From a virus, in the IMG/VR virus record IMGVR_UViG_3300025322_000112, positions 1 to 31,525 of that record: a stretch of DNA of 31,525 bases. One strand, 5' to 3'. Below, one piece after another: positions 17,678 through 24,721 of this stretch; within the stretch, counting starts at the first letter, position 1; every line of letters begins with the position of its first letter. A model generated the notes under the pieces. That model ran no database searches, was not told the origin of the DNA, and was given only the letters and a program-made list of their open reading frames with translations. The position numbers were made by a program, and so were the translations under genes.

Positions 17678-17692
17678 AGTGTACTCCCCTCA

Positions 17693-17720
17693 ATTCTAAG
17701 TATATCACAGAATTTGTCAA
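17693..17720 (-). promoter_or_regulatory. Putative terS promoter overlapped by an operator-like repeat
   Basis: On the minus strand TTGACA (17720-17715) is followed by TGATATACT, an extended -10 box (TATACT at 17704-17699), and then TAGAAT (17698-17693). TTGACA-N16-TAGAAT would start transcription inside the SD, so the extended -10 TATACT fits the gene better, with a leader of about 15 nt. TGACAAATTCTGTGA (17719-17705) is an imperfect copy of the perfect palindrome at 18330-18344 and overlaps this promoter, which suggests repression there. Confidence 0.5.
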
Positions 17721-17886
17721 TCCAGGAAAGTTTTTTCAAGGAGAAGCCCTAAGTGTACGATTTTGAACACAAAGAAAGTTTTGCCGGATTTCCAGAACGG
17801 GGCGTTTATGGCCGAAACAGGCAGTAAAGTACCTTTCTTGTCAAGTCCGGGCTGGCCAAATAGCCGGTGTAAGCCGATGTGTCATC

Positions 17887-17903
17887 GTTATCAATTTGAT
17901 AAC
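17887..17903. promoter_or_regulatory. Perfect 17-bp palindrome, operator type A copy 1
   Basis: GTTATCAA-T-TTGATAAC is a perfect inverted repeat with 8-bp arms. It shares the 13-bp core TATCAATTTGATA with the palindrome at 18377-18395. Such an odd-length perfect dyad found twice in one control region is best explained as a binding site for a dimeric regulator. Confidence 0.7.
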
Positions 17904-18023
17904 AAGATTTACCCAGGAGTTGTCTAGCCCCCTGAGCACCCTATATCGAGATTTGAGACTCAGTTTGTGAGGGTAATATTACACTTTTACACAACTCCAA
18001 TGGCCCCTATGCCCCTATGTGCC

Positions 18024-18054
18024 CGTTTTTGTACAGTGTGTTCGGATTTGTACA
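18024..18054. promoter_or_regulatory. Left pair of GTAC elements
   Basis: TTGTACAG (18029-18036) and TTTGTACA (18047-18054) lie 19 bp apart centre to centre. CGTTTTTGTACA (18024-18035) is the exact reverse complement of 18199-18210 in the right-hand array, giving a 12-bp inverted repeat 175 bp apart that could support DNA looping. The pair lies 63-82 bp before the expected start point of the first sigma-54-type promoter. Confidence 0.5.
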
Positions 18055-18065
18055 CCACAAGCTGT

Positions 18066-18081
18066 TGCATAATCCGTGCCG
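18066..18081 (-). promoter_or_regulatory. Weak sigma-54-like site, minus strand (M1)
   Basis: Minus strand CGGCACGGATTATGCA compared with TGGCAYRNNNNTTGCW: two specified positions differ, but the GG (-24) and GC (-12) pairs and their spacing are kept. It would fire towards the late genes. By itself this is not convincing; it is listed because it interleaves with the better sites and shares GGCACGG with M2. Confidence 0.3.
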
Positions 18082-18086
18082 TCCGG

Positions 18087-18102
18087 TGGCATAAGTATTG
18101 CA
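18087..18102 (+). promoter_or_regulatory. Sigma-54 (RpoN) type promoter P1
   Basis: TGGCATAAGTATTGCA fits TGGCAYRNNNNTTGCW at all specified positions, with GG at 18088-18089 and GC at 18100-18101. Expected start point is near 18113, leaving a ~370-nt leader to the first early gene. Sigma-54 promoters need an AAA+ activator bound upstream; the GTAC pair at 18031-18053 lies at about -63 and -82. Confidence 0.65.
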
Positions 18103-18120
18103 TGGCCAGTGGTGAACCCT

Positions 18121-18136
18121 TGCAACTACCGTGCCC
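18121..18136 (-). promoter_or_regulatory. Sigma-54-like site, minus strand (M2)
   Basis: Minus strand GGGCACGGTAGTTGCA differs from TGGCAYRNNNNTTGCW only at the first T. Expected start near 18110, firing leftwards with a ~430-nt leader before terS. Could give the late block a sigma-54 promoter, or be a by-product of the dense repeats here. Confidence 0.45.
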
Positions 18137-18152
18137 GGCCCCTGGGAATACA

Positions 18153-18168
18153 TGGCACGGAGCTTGCA
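18153..18168 (+). promoter_or_regulatory. Sigma-54 (RpoN) type promoter P2
   Basis: TGGCACGGAGCTTGCA is a full match to the classical TGGCACGNNNNTTGCA form. The expected start point (about 18179) falls inside the first element of the GTAC array, so a protein bound there would probably block it. Confidence 0.68.
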
Positions 18169-18175
18169 TATACTC

Positions 18176-18214
18176 TTGTACAGTTTCGTACACTGTCGTG
18201 TACAAAAACGTACA
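18176..18214. promoter_or_regulatory. Phased array of four GTAC elements
   Basis: GTAC occurs at 18178-18181, 18188-18191, 18200-18203 and 18210-18213, within TTGTACAG, CGTACAC, TGTACA and CGTACA. The spacings of 10, 12 and 10 bp place all four on roughly the same face of the helix, as expected for cooperative binding of a regulator. Confidence 0.6.
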
Positions 18215-18329
18215 TTTCATTCATGTGTGTGAGGAGACAATATTACTCCCTCCTTTTAGTCGGTCGGTATCATGCTAAGATACAGTATAGTATTATATAG
18301 GAACCTGAACTCCCCGGATTTACTCACAT

Positions 18330-18344
18330 TGACAAATTCTGTCA
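18330..18344. promoter_or_regulatory. Perfect 15-bp palindrome TGACA-N5-TGTCA, operator type B
   Basis: TGACA-AATTC-TGTCA. A near copy (TGACAAATTCTGTGA) overlaps the terS promoter at 17705-17719 in the opposite orientation, with the same preceding T (TTGACA). Identical 14-base cores in both outward promoter regions suggest one regulator controls both sides. Confidence 0.6.
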
Positions 18345-18376
18345 CCTTATTATGTACTTTGCTTCCTATTTACACA

Positions 18377-18395
18377 GTGTATCAATTTGATACAC
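18377..18395. promoter_or_regulatory. Perfect 19-bp palindrome, operator type A copy 2
   Basis: GTGTATCAA-T-TTGATACAC is a perfect inverted repeat with 9-bp arms and shares TATCAATTTGATA with 17887-17903. Its centre (18386) is about 70 bp upstream of the expected start of P3, the usual distance of an upstream activator site for sigma-54 promoters; a repressor site is the alternative. Confidence 0.7.
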
Positions 18396-18429
18396 CTAAT
18401 GATTTCAATTATTTGGCCCCAAAAATAGT

Positions 18430-18445
18430 TGGCATAGGCATTGCA
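18430..18445 (+). promoter_or_regulatory. Sigma-54 (RpoN) type promoter P3 of the early operon
   Basis: TGGCATAGGCATTGCA fits the consensus at every specified position and is also preceded by the favoured pyrimidine. GC at 18443-18444 puts +1 at about A18456, 31 bases before the ATG of the first early gene with its AAGGAGGGAG SD in between. Position and spacing make this the most likely promoter of the early operon. Confidence 0.72.
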
Positions 18446-18486
18446 TCTCTTGTTGATCGGTCAAGTAATCTAACAAGGAGGGAGAC

Positions 18487-22270: not shown

Positions 22271-22465
22271 ATGGAGACGATTATTGAATGCCCAAAGTGC
22301 GGGGGCCTGGCCTGGTTCCAGTGGGTCTTTACCGAGAGCAACAAGGTTCCATCCTACCGCTGTGTACAGTGCTCCTATACGGTCTGGATCAATCACACGC
22401 CGGTCAGGATCGTGGAGAAGATTGACCAACGGGGAAAGTATGACAGAAAAAGGGGTAAAGAATGA
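22271..22465 (+). CDS. Zinc-ribbon protein, 64 aa
   Basis: 64 residues: 'ECPKCGGLAWFQWVFTESNKVPSYRCVQCSYTVW' gives CPKC (7-10) and CVQC (31-34), a typical two-strand zinc ribbon. SD AAGGAGG five bases upstream of ATG. Ends in a basic tail; TGA overlaps the next ATG. Confidence 0.65.
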   Translation: METIIECPKCGGLAWFQWVFTESNKVPSYRCVQCSYTVWINHTPVRIVEKIDQRGKYDRKRGKE

Positions 22466-22590
22466 GGAGCCTGTACGCAACAAATTGGAAAGCGGATTTC
22501 CCTTGGCTATGGGCCGGTCTGGCCGTCCTGGTTGTCCTGGCCGCCGGACTCATGGCCCTGGGGTACTTGCTCGGAAGACTTTTCTGCTAA
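22462..22590 (+). CDS. Single-pass membrane microprotein, 42 aa
   Basis: ATG overlaps the previous stop (ATGA). The 42-residue product has a clear transmembrane segment at about residues 14-36 (PWLWAGLAVLVVLAAGLMALG). It is the last gene of the rightward operon here and overlaps, tail to tail, the minus-strand gene ending at 22507 by 84 bases. Either both are translated or the other gene's tail is shorter. Confidence 0.5.
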   Translation: MRSLYATNWKADFPWLWAGLAVLVVLAAGLMALGYLLGRLFC

Positions 22591-22836
22591 GATCGAGTAA
22601 GTTCCTATGGTCAGCAACATCGAATAAAGTACAGGGTCTTCAGCTAGGAGTGAATAGAACCCGTCAGAGATCGCATGGTTGATGTCGGGGCTCGTTTCAA
22701 GCCCTTTCCACATGATCTTAGGCAGAGTCACAGTGACAGACCGAGACACGGGCGTCATGCACTCAGTCAATAAGTCCATGCGCCCATGTTTGGTCAATAC
22801 CTTGGTCACAAGTTTTCCAAGAGAATCGTATTCCAT
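22507..22836 (-). CDS. Hypothetical protein of the minus-strand island, 109 aa
   Basis: 109 residues; the body 'MEYDSLGKLVTKVLTKHGRMDLLTECMTPV...TVTLPKIMWKGLETSPDINHAISDGF' looks like a real globular protein, and the last ~25 residues are polar and disordered (these lie opposite the membrane gene). It lies six bases after the stop of the previous island gene. No good SD is visible, so translation is probably coupled. Not recognised. Confidence 0.5.
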   Translation of the reverse strand: MEYDSLGKLVTKVLTKHGRMDLLTECMTPVSRSVTVTLPKIMWKGLETSPDINHAISDGFYSLLAEDPVLYSMLLTIGTYSILAEKSSEQVPQGHESGGQDNQDGQTGP

Positions 22837-22842
22837 AGGGGC

Positions 22843-23181
22843 CTATCGAGGTCGGATTTGGTACAAAGCCTGCTTTTCTGGCCTGCCGACTTTGTATCCT
22901 GGATTCTTGGCCAGCCTGCGGATTTGGTTGTATATCGCTAAGGCCGAACTGTAAGCCTTTTGGCTAACGAGTTTAGTAAAACGGCTGTCCAGGTAGATCA
23001 ACTTTTGGGCCTTGGGTATGCTACCATAAAATCTGTACCCTTTCCGCTTCAAGGCCGCTCGGTTCTCACCGAGGGCAGACTGTGACCACCAGTCAGACCT
23101 TTCCATCAATGTTGTGTGCTCTGTCGCTGACAAGTCAGATTCCACCGCCTTTTTTAACAATGACAATACCACACGCTTCAT
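22843..23181 (-). CDS. Basic protein of the minus-strand island, 112 aa
   Basis: 112 residues, strongly basic and helical ('LSLLKKAVESDLSATEHTTLMERSDWWSQSALGENRAALKRKGYRFYG...AIYNQIRRLAKNPGYKVGRPEKQ'). GAGGG six bases before ATG, overlapping the previous stop. Size and charge would suit a nucleic acid binder. Family not recognised. Confidence 0.6.
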   Translation of the reverse strand: MKRVVLSLLKKAVESDLSATEHTTLMERSDWWSQSALGENRAALKRKGYRFYGSIPKAQKLIYLDSRFTKLVSQKAYSSALAIYNQIRRLAKNPGYKVGRPEKQALYQIRPR

Positions 23182-23189
23182 GTTCCCTC

Positions 23190-23387
23190 CTATTTTTTTG
23201 TTGTGAGGCTGCTTAGATCAAGTTTTATGCCCCCCTTGGAAGGAGACACTATCAGTTTGCCCGGCTCATTATCTTTCTTGTGTAGGTATGCCAGAGTCAG
23301 ACGAAGTGCATTCTCTAGGGCTGCAACCCTGAGCTCAAGGTGATCGATCCTTGACCGCTTGATGGTACGAGCTATGATGTTTGACAT
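23190..23387 (-). CDS. First protein of the minus-strand island, 65 aa
   Basis: 65 residues: basic start 'SNIIARTIKRSRIDH', then a likely coiled coil ('LELRVAALENALRLTLAYLHKK'), and a charged tail. ATG at 23387 chosen because GGAGAAC lies just upstream; a longer in-frame ATG at 23468 would lie inside the structured leader. The short basic region plus coiled coil would fit a small DNA-binding or adaptor protein (inference). Confidence 0.6.
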   Translation of the reverse strand: MSNIIARTIKRSRIDHLELRVAALENALRLTLAYLHKKDNEPGKLIVSPSKGGIKLDLSSLTTKK

Positions 23388-23405
23388 AAGTTCTCCATGA
23401 GTCCA

Positions 23406-23492
23406 TGAGGCATAGAGCCCGAAGGACGTTGCACCGGCTTCGGGACTTTCCGCTATACGGGCCGACATGCAATCGGTCTTTCCTATGCCTCA
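23406..23492 (-). ncRNA. Structured leader RNA (multi-helix junction) of the minus-strand island
   Basis: Minus-strand UGAGGCAUAG (23492-23483) and CUAUGCCUCA (23415-23406) pair perfectly over 10 bases and close an ~87-nt domain. Inside are CCGA-UUGCAUG-UCGG (23476-23462) and a hairpin with the 7-bp stem CCCGAAG/CUUCGGG (23444-23438 with 23424-23418). The two loops contain UUGCA and UGCAA, so loop-loop pairing is possible. The predicted start point of the island promoter (about 23491) falls on the first bases of the closing stem. The ATG of the first gene lies ~20 nt after the domain. I do not recognise a known riboswitch. Confidence 0.55.
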
Positions 23493-23497
23493 ATCTT

Positions 23498-23526
23498 AGT
23501 TTAGCACAAGACTTGCATCCTGTCAA
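23498..23526 (-). promoter_or_regulatory. Sigma-70 extended -10 promoter of the minus-strand island
   Basis: TTGACA (23526-23521), 17-bp spacer, TAAACT (23503-23498) preceded by TGC (extended -10, TGTGCTAAACT). Expected start at about G23491. It overlaps the helicase promoter on the other strand. Confidence 0.75.
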
Positions 23527-23541
23527 GGTTTGTGCTAGACT
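23513..23541 (+). promoter_or_regulatory. Sigma-70 extended -10 promoter of the helicase gene
   Basis: TTGCAT (23513-23518), 17-bp spacer, TAGACT (23536-23541) preceded by TGC (TGTGCTAGACT). Expected start near 23548, giving a leader of only ~13 nt that still holds the SD (GGAGG at 23550-23554). The two promoters share the same DNA, so they cannot be occupied at once. Confidence 0.72.
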
Positions 23542-23560
23542 TAGAGAATGGAGGTACACC

Positions 23561-24721
23561 ATGCTCAATGAAAGGCTATTGCTGTCGTGTCTGTGTCGCA
23601 AGTCTATGTATTATAAATACAAATCCTCTATAGCTCCGGGATACTTTTCGGACATGGAGTCCCGGAAGGTCTATGAAACTATGTCCGGTCTACACGAAAA
23701 GAGCACGGGGGATATCCCGTTGGAACTTTTACATCTACCGGAGGTCATGGACTTACCATTGGCTGAAGCATCTCTTGAAGATTTCGCTGTCCGATGTAAG
23801 CTGAACGAAGTTCAACTCTCACTGGCCAAGCGGTTGAACTCTCCAAAACTGCTTACGATCAGTGAAATCGAATCCACTATGCCCGGAGTAGGTCGTGATC
23901 TTCCGGTATCTTCAGATTTAAAATTGTACCAAGGGAACGGGTACATCCGGCCACGTTACCCGATTGACTGTGGGCCTATGTCTGCCGCCCTTGAAGGCGG
24001 AATGTCTTGTGGGGAGTTATGTATCATCGGGAGCCCGCCGTGGGGCGGGAAGACACACACTCTGACGACATTCGGGGCATGGGCTGTGTCTCAGGGTCAT
24101 CCGGTTCTCCATGTCATCCTCGAAGACCTTGCCCACGATGTCCACGGGTATTATCAAAAGGCTCTGGGGGTCAAAGAGACTCCGGGTCACTTGTTCTTGC
24201 TCGACTCCAATTCAGGGCCTACCACTGTCCCGACTGTGTCGAAGTACATCAACAAAATCTTTCTGAAATACTATCAAAGTATACAAGAAGAAGCAAGACT
24301 TACTGGGAACACGTTGATACCACGTCCACCACTGGTCATCGTGGACTACATGGACATCGTACACTCAGAGCATGAAGACAAAGTCATCAGGCTTGAGAAC
24401 ATCACCAGAGACCTTAGACGCATGGCGAACAAACATAATCTCCTGGTTATGACTGCATCACAGACCGATGTAGACTCCTGGGGAAAGTCATTCATCACAA
24501 ACCGAAACCTTGCGGGAAGTAAAGTCGGAAAGGCCGCCAACGCTGATATAATCATCATGCTTGCTCAGGAAGATTGGCAAAGGCCGTCAGGTCAGGCTAA
24601 GTTTATCATCACCAAAGGACGAGGAAGACGTATAAGACAGCAAGAATTCCCTGTCGTCCTTGACTGGGACAACTGTTCTATCAGGTTCATGGTTCAACAA
24701 GAACCACTCTACCAAGGTTGA
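23561..24721 (+). CDS. DnaB-like replicative helicase
   Basis: 386 residues. N-terminal helical part (1-110), then a RecA-type ATPase: Walker A GSPPWGGKT (157-165), catalytic Glu in 'VILEDL' (E188), Walker B 'LVIVDYMDI' (D262), 'MTASQT' with Q301 as sensor, and 'KGRGRR' (352-357) with likely arginine finger. This motif order is that of DnaB/gp41-type helicases, which unwind the fork as hexamers. ATG at 23561 is chosen for the GGAGG seven bases upstream; the frame is open for 156 bases further left but that part is promoter and antisense leader. Primase and polymerase follow downstream. Confidence 0.85.
   Translation: MLNERLLLSCLCRKSMYYKYKSSIAPGYFSDMESRKVYETMSGLHEKSTGDIPLELLHLPEVMDLPLAEASLEDFAVRCKLNEVQLSLAKRLNSPKLLTISEIESTMPGVGRDLPVSSDLKLYQGNGYIRPRYPIDCGPMSAALEGGMSCGELCIIGSPPWGGKTHTLTTFGAWAVSQGHPVLHVILEDLAHDVHGYYQKALGVKETPGHLFLLDSNSGPTTVPTVSKYINKIFLKYYQSIQEEARLTGNTLIPRPPLVIVDYMDIVHSEHEDKVIRLENITRDLRRMANKHNLLVMTASQTDVDSWGKSFITNRNLAGSKVGKAANADIIIMLAQEDWQRPSGQAKFIITKGRGRRIRQQEFPVVLDWDNCSIRFMVQQEPLYQG

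Follow-up and report, generated by a model that had tools for sequence, protein, structure and literature searches.

The 87 nt at positions 23406 to 23492 (minus strand) of the phage DNA analysed here are tentatively read as an ordinary structured 5' leader for a short operon of leftward orphan genes, with a terminal stem that would slow mRNA decay. This reading was rated the highest of those considered, with a rough probability of 0.38. As far as the sequence goes, the features of the element are real, and the position of some of them is unusual. The first-pass annotation proposed a new class of structured RNA, which is possible but unsupported.

The window, i.e., the whole stretch of DNA that was analysed, is a 31,525-base IMG/VR virus record of an uncultured phage, the lineage of which is nearly unsampled. 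The structural genes (terminase, portal and major head protein) are leftward, and the rightward arm contains the replication genes (DnaB-like helicase, primase-like protein, DNA polymerase and exonuclease). Three orphan frames form a leftward island (22507-23387) directly before the DnaB-like helicase gene, and a gap of 173 bases, in which the element is located, separates the two. The genes concerned are:

23561 to 24721, plus strand: DnaB-like replicative helicase, divergent neighbour (phrog_19, E 1.7e-31; PF03796)
23190 to 23387, minus strand: 65-aa orphan protein, first island gene, with a long N-terminal helix predicted
22843 to 23181, minus strand: 112-aa basic orphan protein, second island gene
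22507 to 22836, minus strand: 109-aa orphan frame, third island gene

The long helix of the first island protein comes from a structure prediction of modest confidence; the prediction for the second one (112 aa) is too poor for use (pLDDT 46). On the plus strand, a short frame (22464-22591) encodes a hydrophobic segment and looks holin-like; it overlaps the third island frame (22507-22836) at the 3' end of the latter, in the opposite direction.

The main control region of the phage is likely the ~800-base gap between the structural and the early divergent arms (17690-18486). Many palindromes are present there. TATCAATTTGATA occurs twice, at 17889 and 18380; a 15-bp element, ACAGAATTTGTCAAT, is located at 17707 with an inverted copy at 18328, and each contains a TTGACA hexamer; TGTACA sites are clustered at 18030-18204.

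The element itself is made of the following parts, the closing stem being read from the sequence and the hairpins from the predicted fold:

23406 to 23492, minus strand: the element (87 nt), predicted to form a closed, multi-branched domain with which the leftward transcript would begin
23483 to 23492, minus strand: 5' arm of P1, the perfect 10-bp closing stem
23406 to 23415, minus strand: 3' arm of P1
23462 to 23476, minus strand: hairpin P2, with UUGCA at 23472-23468
23450 to 23460, minus strand: small hairpin P3
23416 to 23447, minus strand: hairpin P4 (CCCGAAG/CUUCGGG), with UGCAA at 23433-23429

P1 pairs UGAGGCAUAG with CUAUGCCUCA (23492-23483 with 23415-23406) over 10 bp without mismatch. 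The stem described by the first-pass annotation is thus present in the sequence, and its «at least two hairpins» agree with the three that are predicted. For the 87 nt of the minus strand, the fold energy is -38.3 kcal/mol (z -4.0), which none of 200 shuffles equals. The plus strand folds at -38.5 kcal/mol (z -3.9), i.e., as well as the minus strand, so the strand is not named by the fold. Without the closing stem, the inner 67 nt have a z of only -1.45 and 18 of 200 shuffles are as good; the fold signal thus comes mainly from the closing stem. Among the phage's own 10,480 windows of 87 nt, after G+C correction, the element ranks 102nd on the minus strand and 42nd on the plus strand, i.e., within the top 1% and the top 0.4%, respectively, but below the top.

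A 10-bp inverted repeat as such is not rare: the window contains five perfect inverted repeats of at least 10 bp (spacer up to 150) vs. ~4.5 expected by our own arithmetic (31525 x 148 / 4^10 = 4.5), which is the chance frequency. The placement of the stem at the predicted transcript start is unusual. A 5'-terminal stem of at least 10 bp is found in 1.3e-4 of random 104-nt leaders (~1 in 7,500), in a test that was picked after the pattern was seen and that presupposes the predicted promoter.

The two motifs UUGCA and UGCAA had been taken as the partners of a kissing interaction. They are mutually complementary, but may just as well pair as a nested helix; this helix is 5.3 kcal/mol above the best minus-strand fold, and its equivalent is part of the best plus-strand fold. 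An extended imperfect palindrome, instead of a kissing pair, may thus be the origin of the complementarity. Similarly, the GGAAAG(A/U)CC block that was said to precede each hairpin does occur in two copies in the element, but the GGAAAGNCC repeat, with 8/9 positions matching in a stretch of 87 nt, is close to the chance expectation (roughly 0.4 by our estimate).

Three features are located upstream of the element:

23498 to 23526, minus strand: sigma70-like promoter TTGACA-17-TAAACT with TG before the -10 (10/12 matches), predicted start ~23491
23513 to 23541, plus strand: weak divergent promoter-like sequence TTGCAT-17-TAGACT facing the DnaB-like gene (7/12 consensus, read from the sequence)
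23494 to 23545, not assigned to a strand: imperfect inverted repeat (16-nt arms, 14 positions paired) that extends across both divergent promoters

The start that is predicted from the promoter match (~23491) coincides with the foot of the P1 stem, in accordance with the initial description. Promoter-like sites are as numerous in the region as expected by chance; it is thus its position that supports the minus-strand promoter. The plus-strand site does not appear in the computed list of promoter-like sites. The inverted repeat that adjoins the element (23494-23545) is a possible operator. With the predicted start, the leader of the leftward transcript would be ~104 nt long, vs. ~10-15 nt as it seems for the dnaB and small-terminase promoters (read from the sequence and the promoter list). 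No terminator-like site was found at the element.

The leader would act as follows. The leftward operon and the DnaB-like helicase gene would have their promoters back to back, and the 10-bp stem would start at about the first transcribed base. We infer that an RNA begins there and that the stem hides its 5' end from enzymes needing a single-stranded 5' terminus, so that the mRNA would live longer. RppH and RNase E are such 5'-end-dependent enzymes in bacteria that have them. The leader would be folded away as an independent domain and the Shine-Dalgarno left outside. Two further features concern the translation start:

23393 to 23396, minus strand: Shine-Dalgarno GGAG, 5 nt before ATG 23387
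23190 to 23468, minus strand: alternative 92-aa frame, with its start inside the element

The gene with this Shine-Dalgarno (ATG 23387) begins 18 nt downstream of the element, close to the ~20 nt given at first. The fold model gives an independent domain: its fold is unchanged when the downstream sequence is lengthened, and removal of the element leaves the accessibility predicted for the Shine-Dalgarno and the AUG as it was, with several downstream lengths. The AUG is predicted to be largely paired with the sequence just inside the gene, separately from the element.

The main rival, which is unlikely though less so than those weighed further below, is that the element is the start of the downstream coding sequence, i.e., a 92-aa protein starting at ATG 23468, and that the fold is incidental. 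The minus-strand frame 23468-23388 (27 codons) is open and in phase with the gene of the 65-aa protein, and its codon usage is like that of its neighbours (0.06 bits/codon vs. 0.01-0.04 in the three island genes), while the other five frames are negative (-0.16 to -0.38 bits/codon); moreover, ATG 23468 comes 23 nt after the predicted transcript start. The assertion of the first-pass annotation that neither strand codes here is thus doubtful. However, the codon score discriminates weakly (15% of open out-of-frame stretches reach as high), and the 10-bp stem would be left unexplained. The Shine-Dalgarno for ATG 23468 is weak and badly spaced (-4.2 kcal/mol, ~11 nt off) vs. a well-spaced one of -6.4 for ATG 23387, a comparison which favours 23387 as the probable start. 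On the plus strand, an N-terminal extension of DnaB across the element was ruled out (codon score -0.21).

No relative of the element was found in the searched collections, for which alone this absence holds. In Rfam 15, no family is at or above the gathering threshold and the best sub-threshold match is a snoRNA at chance level (E 0.61), in line with the earlier remark that no known class is matched. Searches of phage DNA and plasmid DNA gave no relative, nor did those of IMG/VR via the helicase, the polymerase, the first island protein and a DNA pattern. Exact and gapped DNA patterns gave nothing related in viral contigs (two chance matches have no similar layout). When the gapped pattern was applied to genome contigs, no match that was examined among those listed has the layout of the element. 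The listed matches are mostly those of a dispersed repeat, GCGGAAAGCCC(G/A)CAGGATTTGCATNNGCAAATCCGAGGACTTGNAGCGGAAAGCCCG followed by a hairpin-forming sequence, which is present in dozens of JAISAF01 contigs of one Spirochaetales MAG (Gx481_bin132); it merely fits the search pattern and is unrelated to the element.

The search with the large terminase led to IMGVR_UViG_3300025159_000060, the contig of which ends just upstream of the small terminase gene. Its terminase, portal and head proteins are 99.8-100% identical; it is thus the same virus population assembled in another record. The terminase profile gave two relatives at 43%, with no homologue of the element region in their fetched parts, and the helicase profile gave relatives of 30% or less only. 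A single-sequence covariance model applied to ~1.5 Mb of fetched loci found the element itself only.

A fold due to chance, i.e., an inverted repeat that happens to adjoin a promoter-like sequence, is somewhat less probable than the coding alternative. It would account for the number of inverted repeats in the window, the rank of 102 among 10,480, the z of the interior and the chance number of promoter-like sites, but not easily for a stem foot and a predicted start that fall together, which is rare (1.3e-4 per leader). Less probable again is a cis-regulatory RNA with a kissing-loop core that senses a ligand or a protein (riboswitch or autoregulatory leader). The 5' leader position, the closed multi-branched domain and the complementary loops agree with it, and of the riboswitch-like layout that had been put forward, a structured 5' leader is plausible. 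However, the riboswitch-like part is not supported: there is no terminator and the predicted accessibility of the start site does not depend on the element, thus no expression platform is visible in the fold model; the downstream orphan genes point to no ligand, and neither an Rfam match nor relatives were found in the searched collections. It is improbable that the element represents a cis-acting phage RNA of a new class (protein-binding, antiterminating or ligand-sensing) that would have a kissing-loop core and a closing stem at the first base of the transcript, and would be confined to an unsampled lineage: several divergent relatives in which base changes are compensated would be needed for such a class, and the searched collections gave none, so this reading is unsupported. 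A conserved class, if true, would be an added cis-acting RNA in phage early control.

A structured DNA site or a plus-strand RNA, i.e., an operator or a replication-related palindrome beside the helicase gene, is very improbable. The fold of the plus strand is equally good, single-stranded DNA of either strand also folds well, and a second, longer inverted repeat directly adjoins over the promoters; on the other hand, a cruciform is unlikely because of the 67-nt loop, and there are no iterons in the gap and no G+C skew turn specific to the site. The lowest probability is given to an RNA antiterminator acting in cis on RNA polymerase, like put of phage HK022. The ends of the element are joined by the closing stem, and its operon is short, without a known terminator to pass. 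Its similarity to two HK022 put-like sequences, a pair found by its own left-right similarity and not by annotation, is no better than that of shuffles (local scores of 7, which 93% of shuffles reach, and 10, which 19% reach). Its position directly downstream of a promoter and its size, near that of put (~70 nt; PMC9378689), are in favour of this reading.

The stabilising leader is thus supported by (i) the stem and the fold; (ii) the 10/12 promoter with TG in the divergent gap; (iii) the rare placement of the stem; (iv) the length of the leader as compared with those elsewhere in the phage; (v) the independence of the domain, which leaves the pairing of the start site unaltered. Against it stand the near-chance inner structure, the equal fold of the plus strand, the gene-like frame across the element, the chance number of 10-bp inverted repeats and the absence of relatives in the searched collections.

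Among known systems, the manA and wcaG motifs are phage-borne riboswitch candidates, which indicates that phages can carry leader RNAs (PMC2864571). The element is comparable to them as a structured 5' leader in a phage, and differs in having no Rfam match, no metabolic gene downstream and no expression platform. The c4 antisense RNA of phages (RF01695; PMC2864571) is also a small structured phage RNA; here too the element differs in that it has no Rfam match.

The element is comparable to putL and putR of HK022 in that it would be a structured RNA of similar length directly after a phage promoter. One closed domain with a long stem is predicted here, whereas put RNA consists of two tandem stem-loops which contact the beta' zinc-binding domain of RNA polymerase. 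The ~70 nt of putL are located just after the promoter (PMC9378689).

In the E. coli ompA and papA leaders, 5'-terminal stem-loops stabilise the mRNA (cited in PMC3997798). The element would be like these leaders in having its stem at or next to the predicted 5' end of the transcript and its Shine-Dalgarno outside; it differs by a larger, multi-branched domain and in that its transcription and stabilising effect are putative. If true, the stabilising leader would be one more case of this well-known arrangement.
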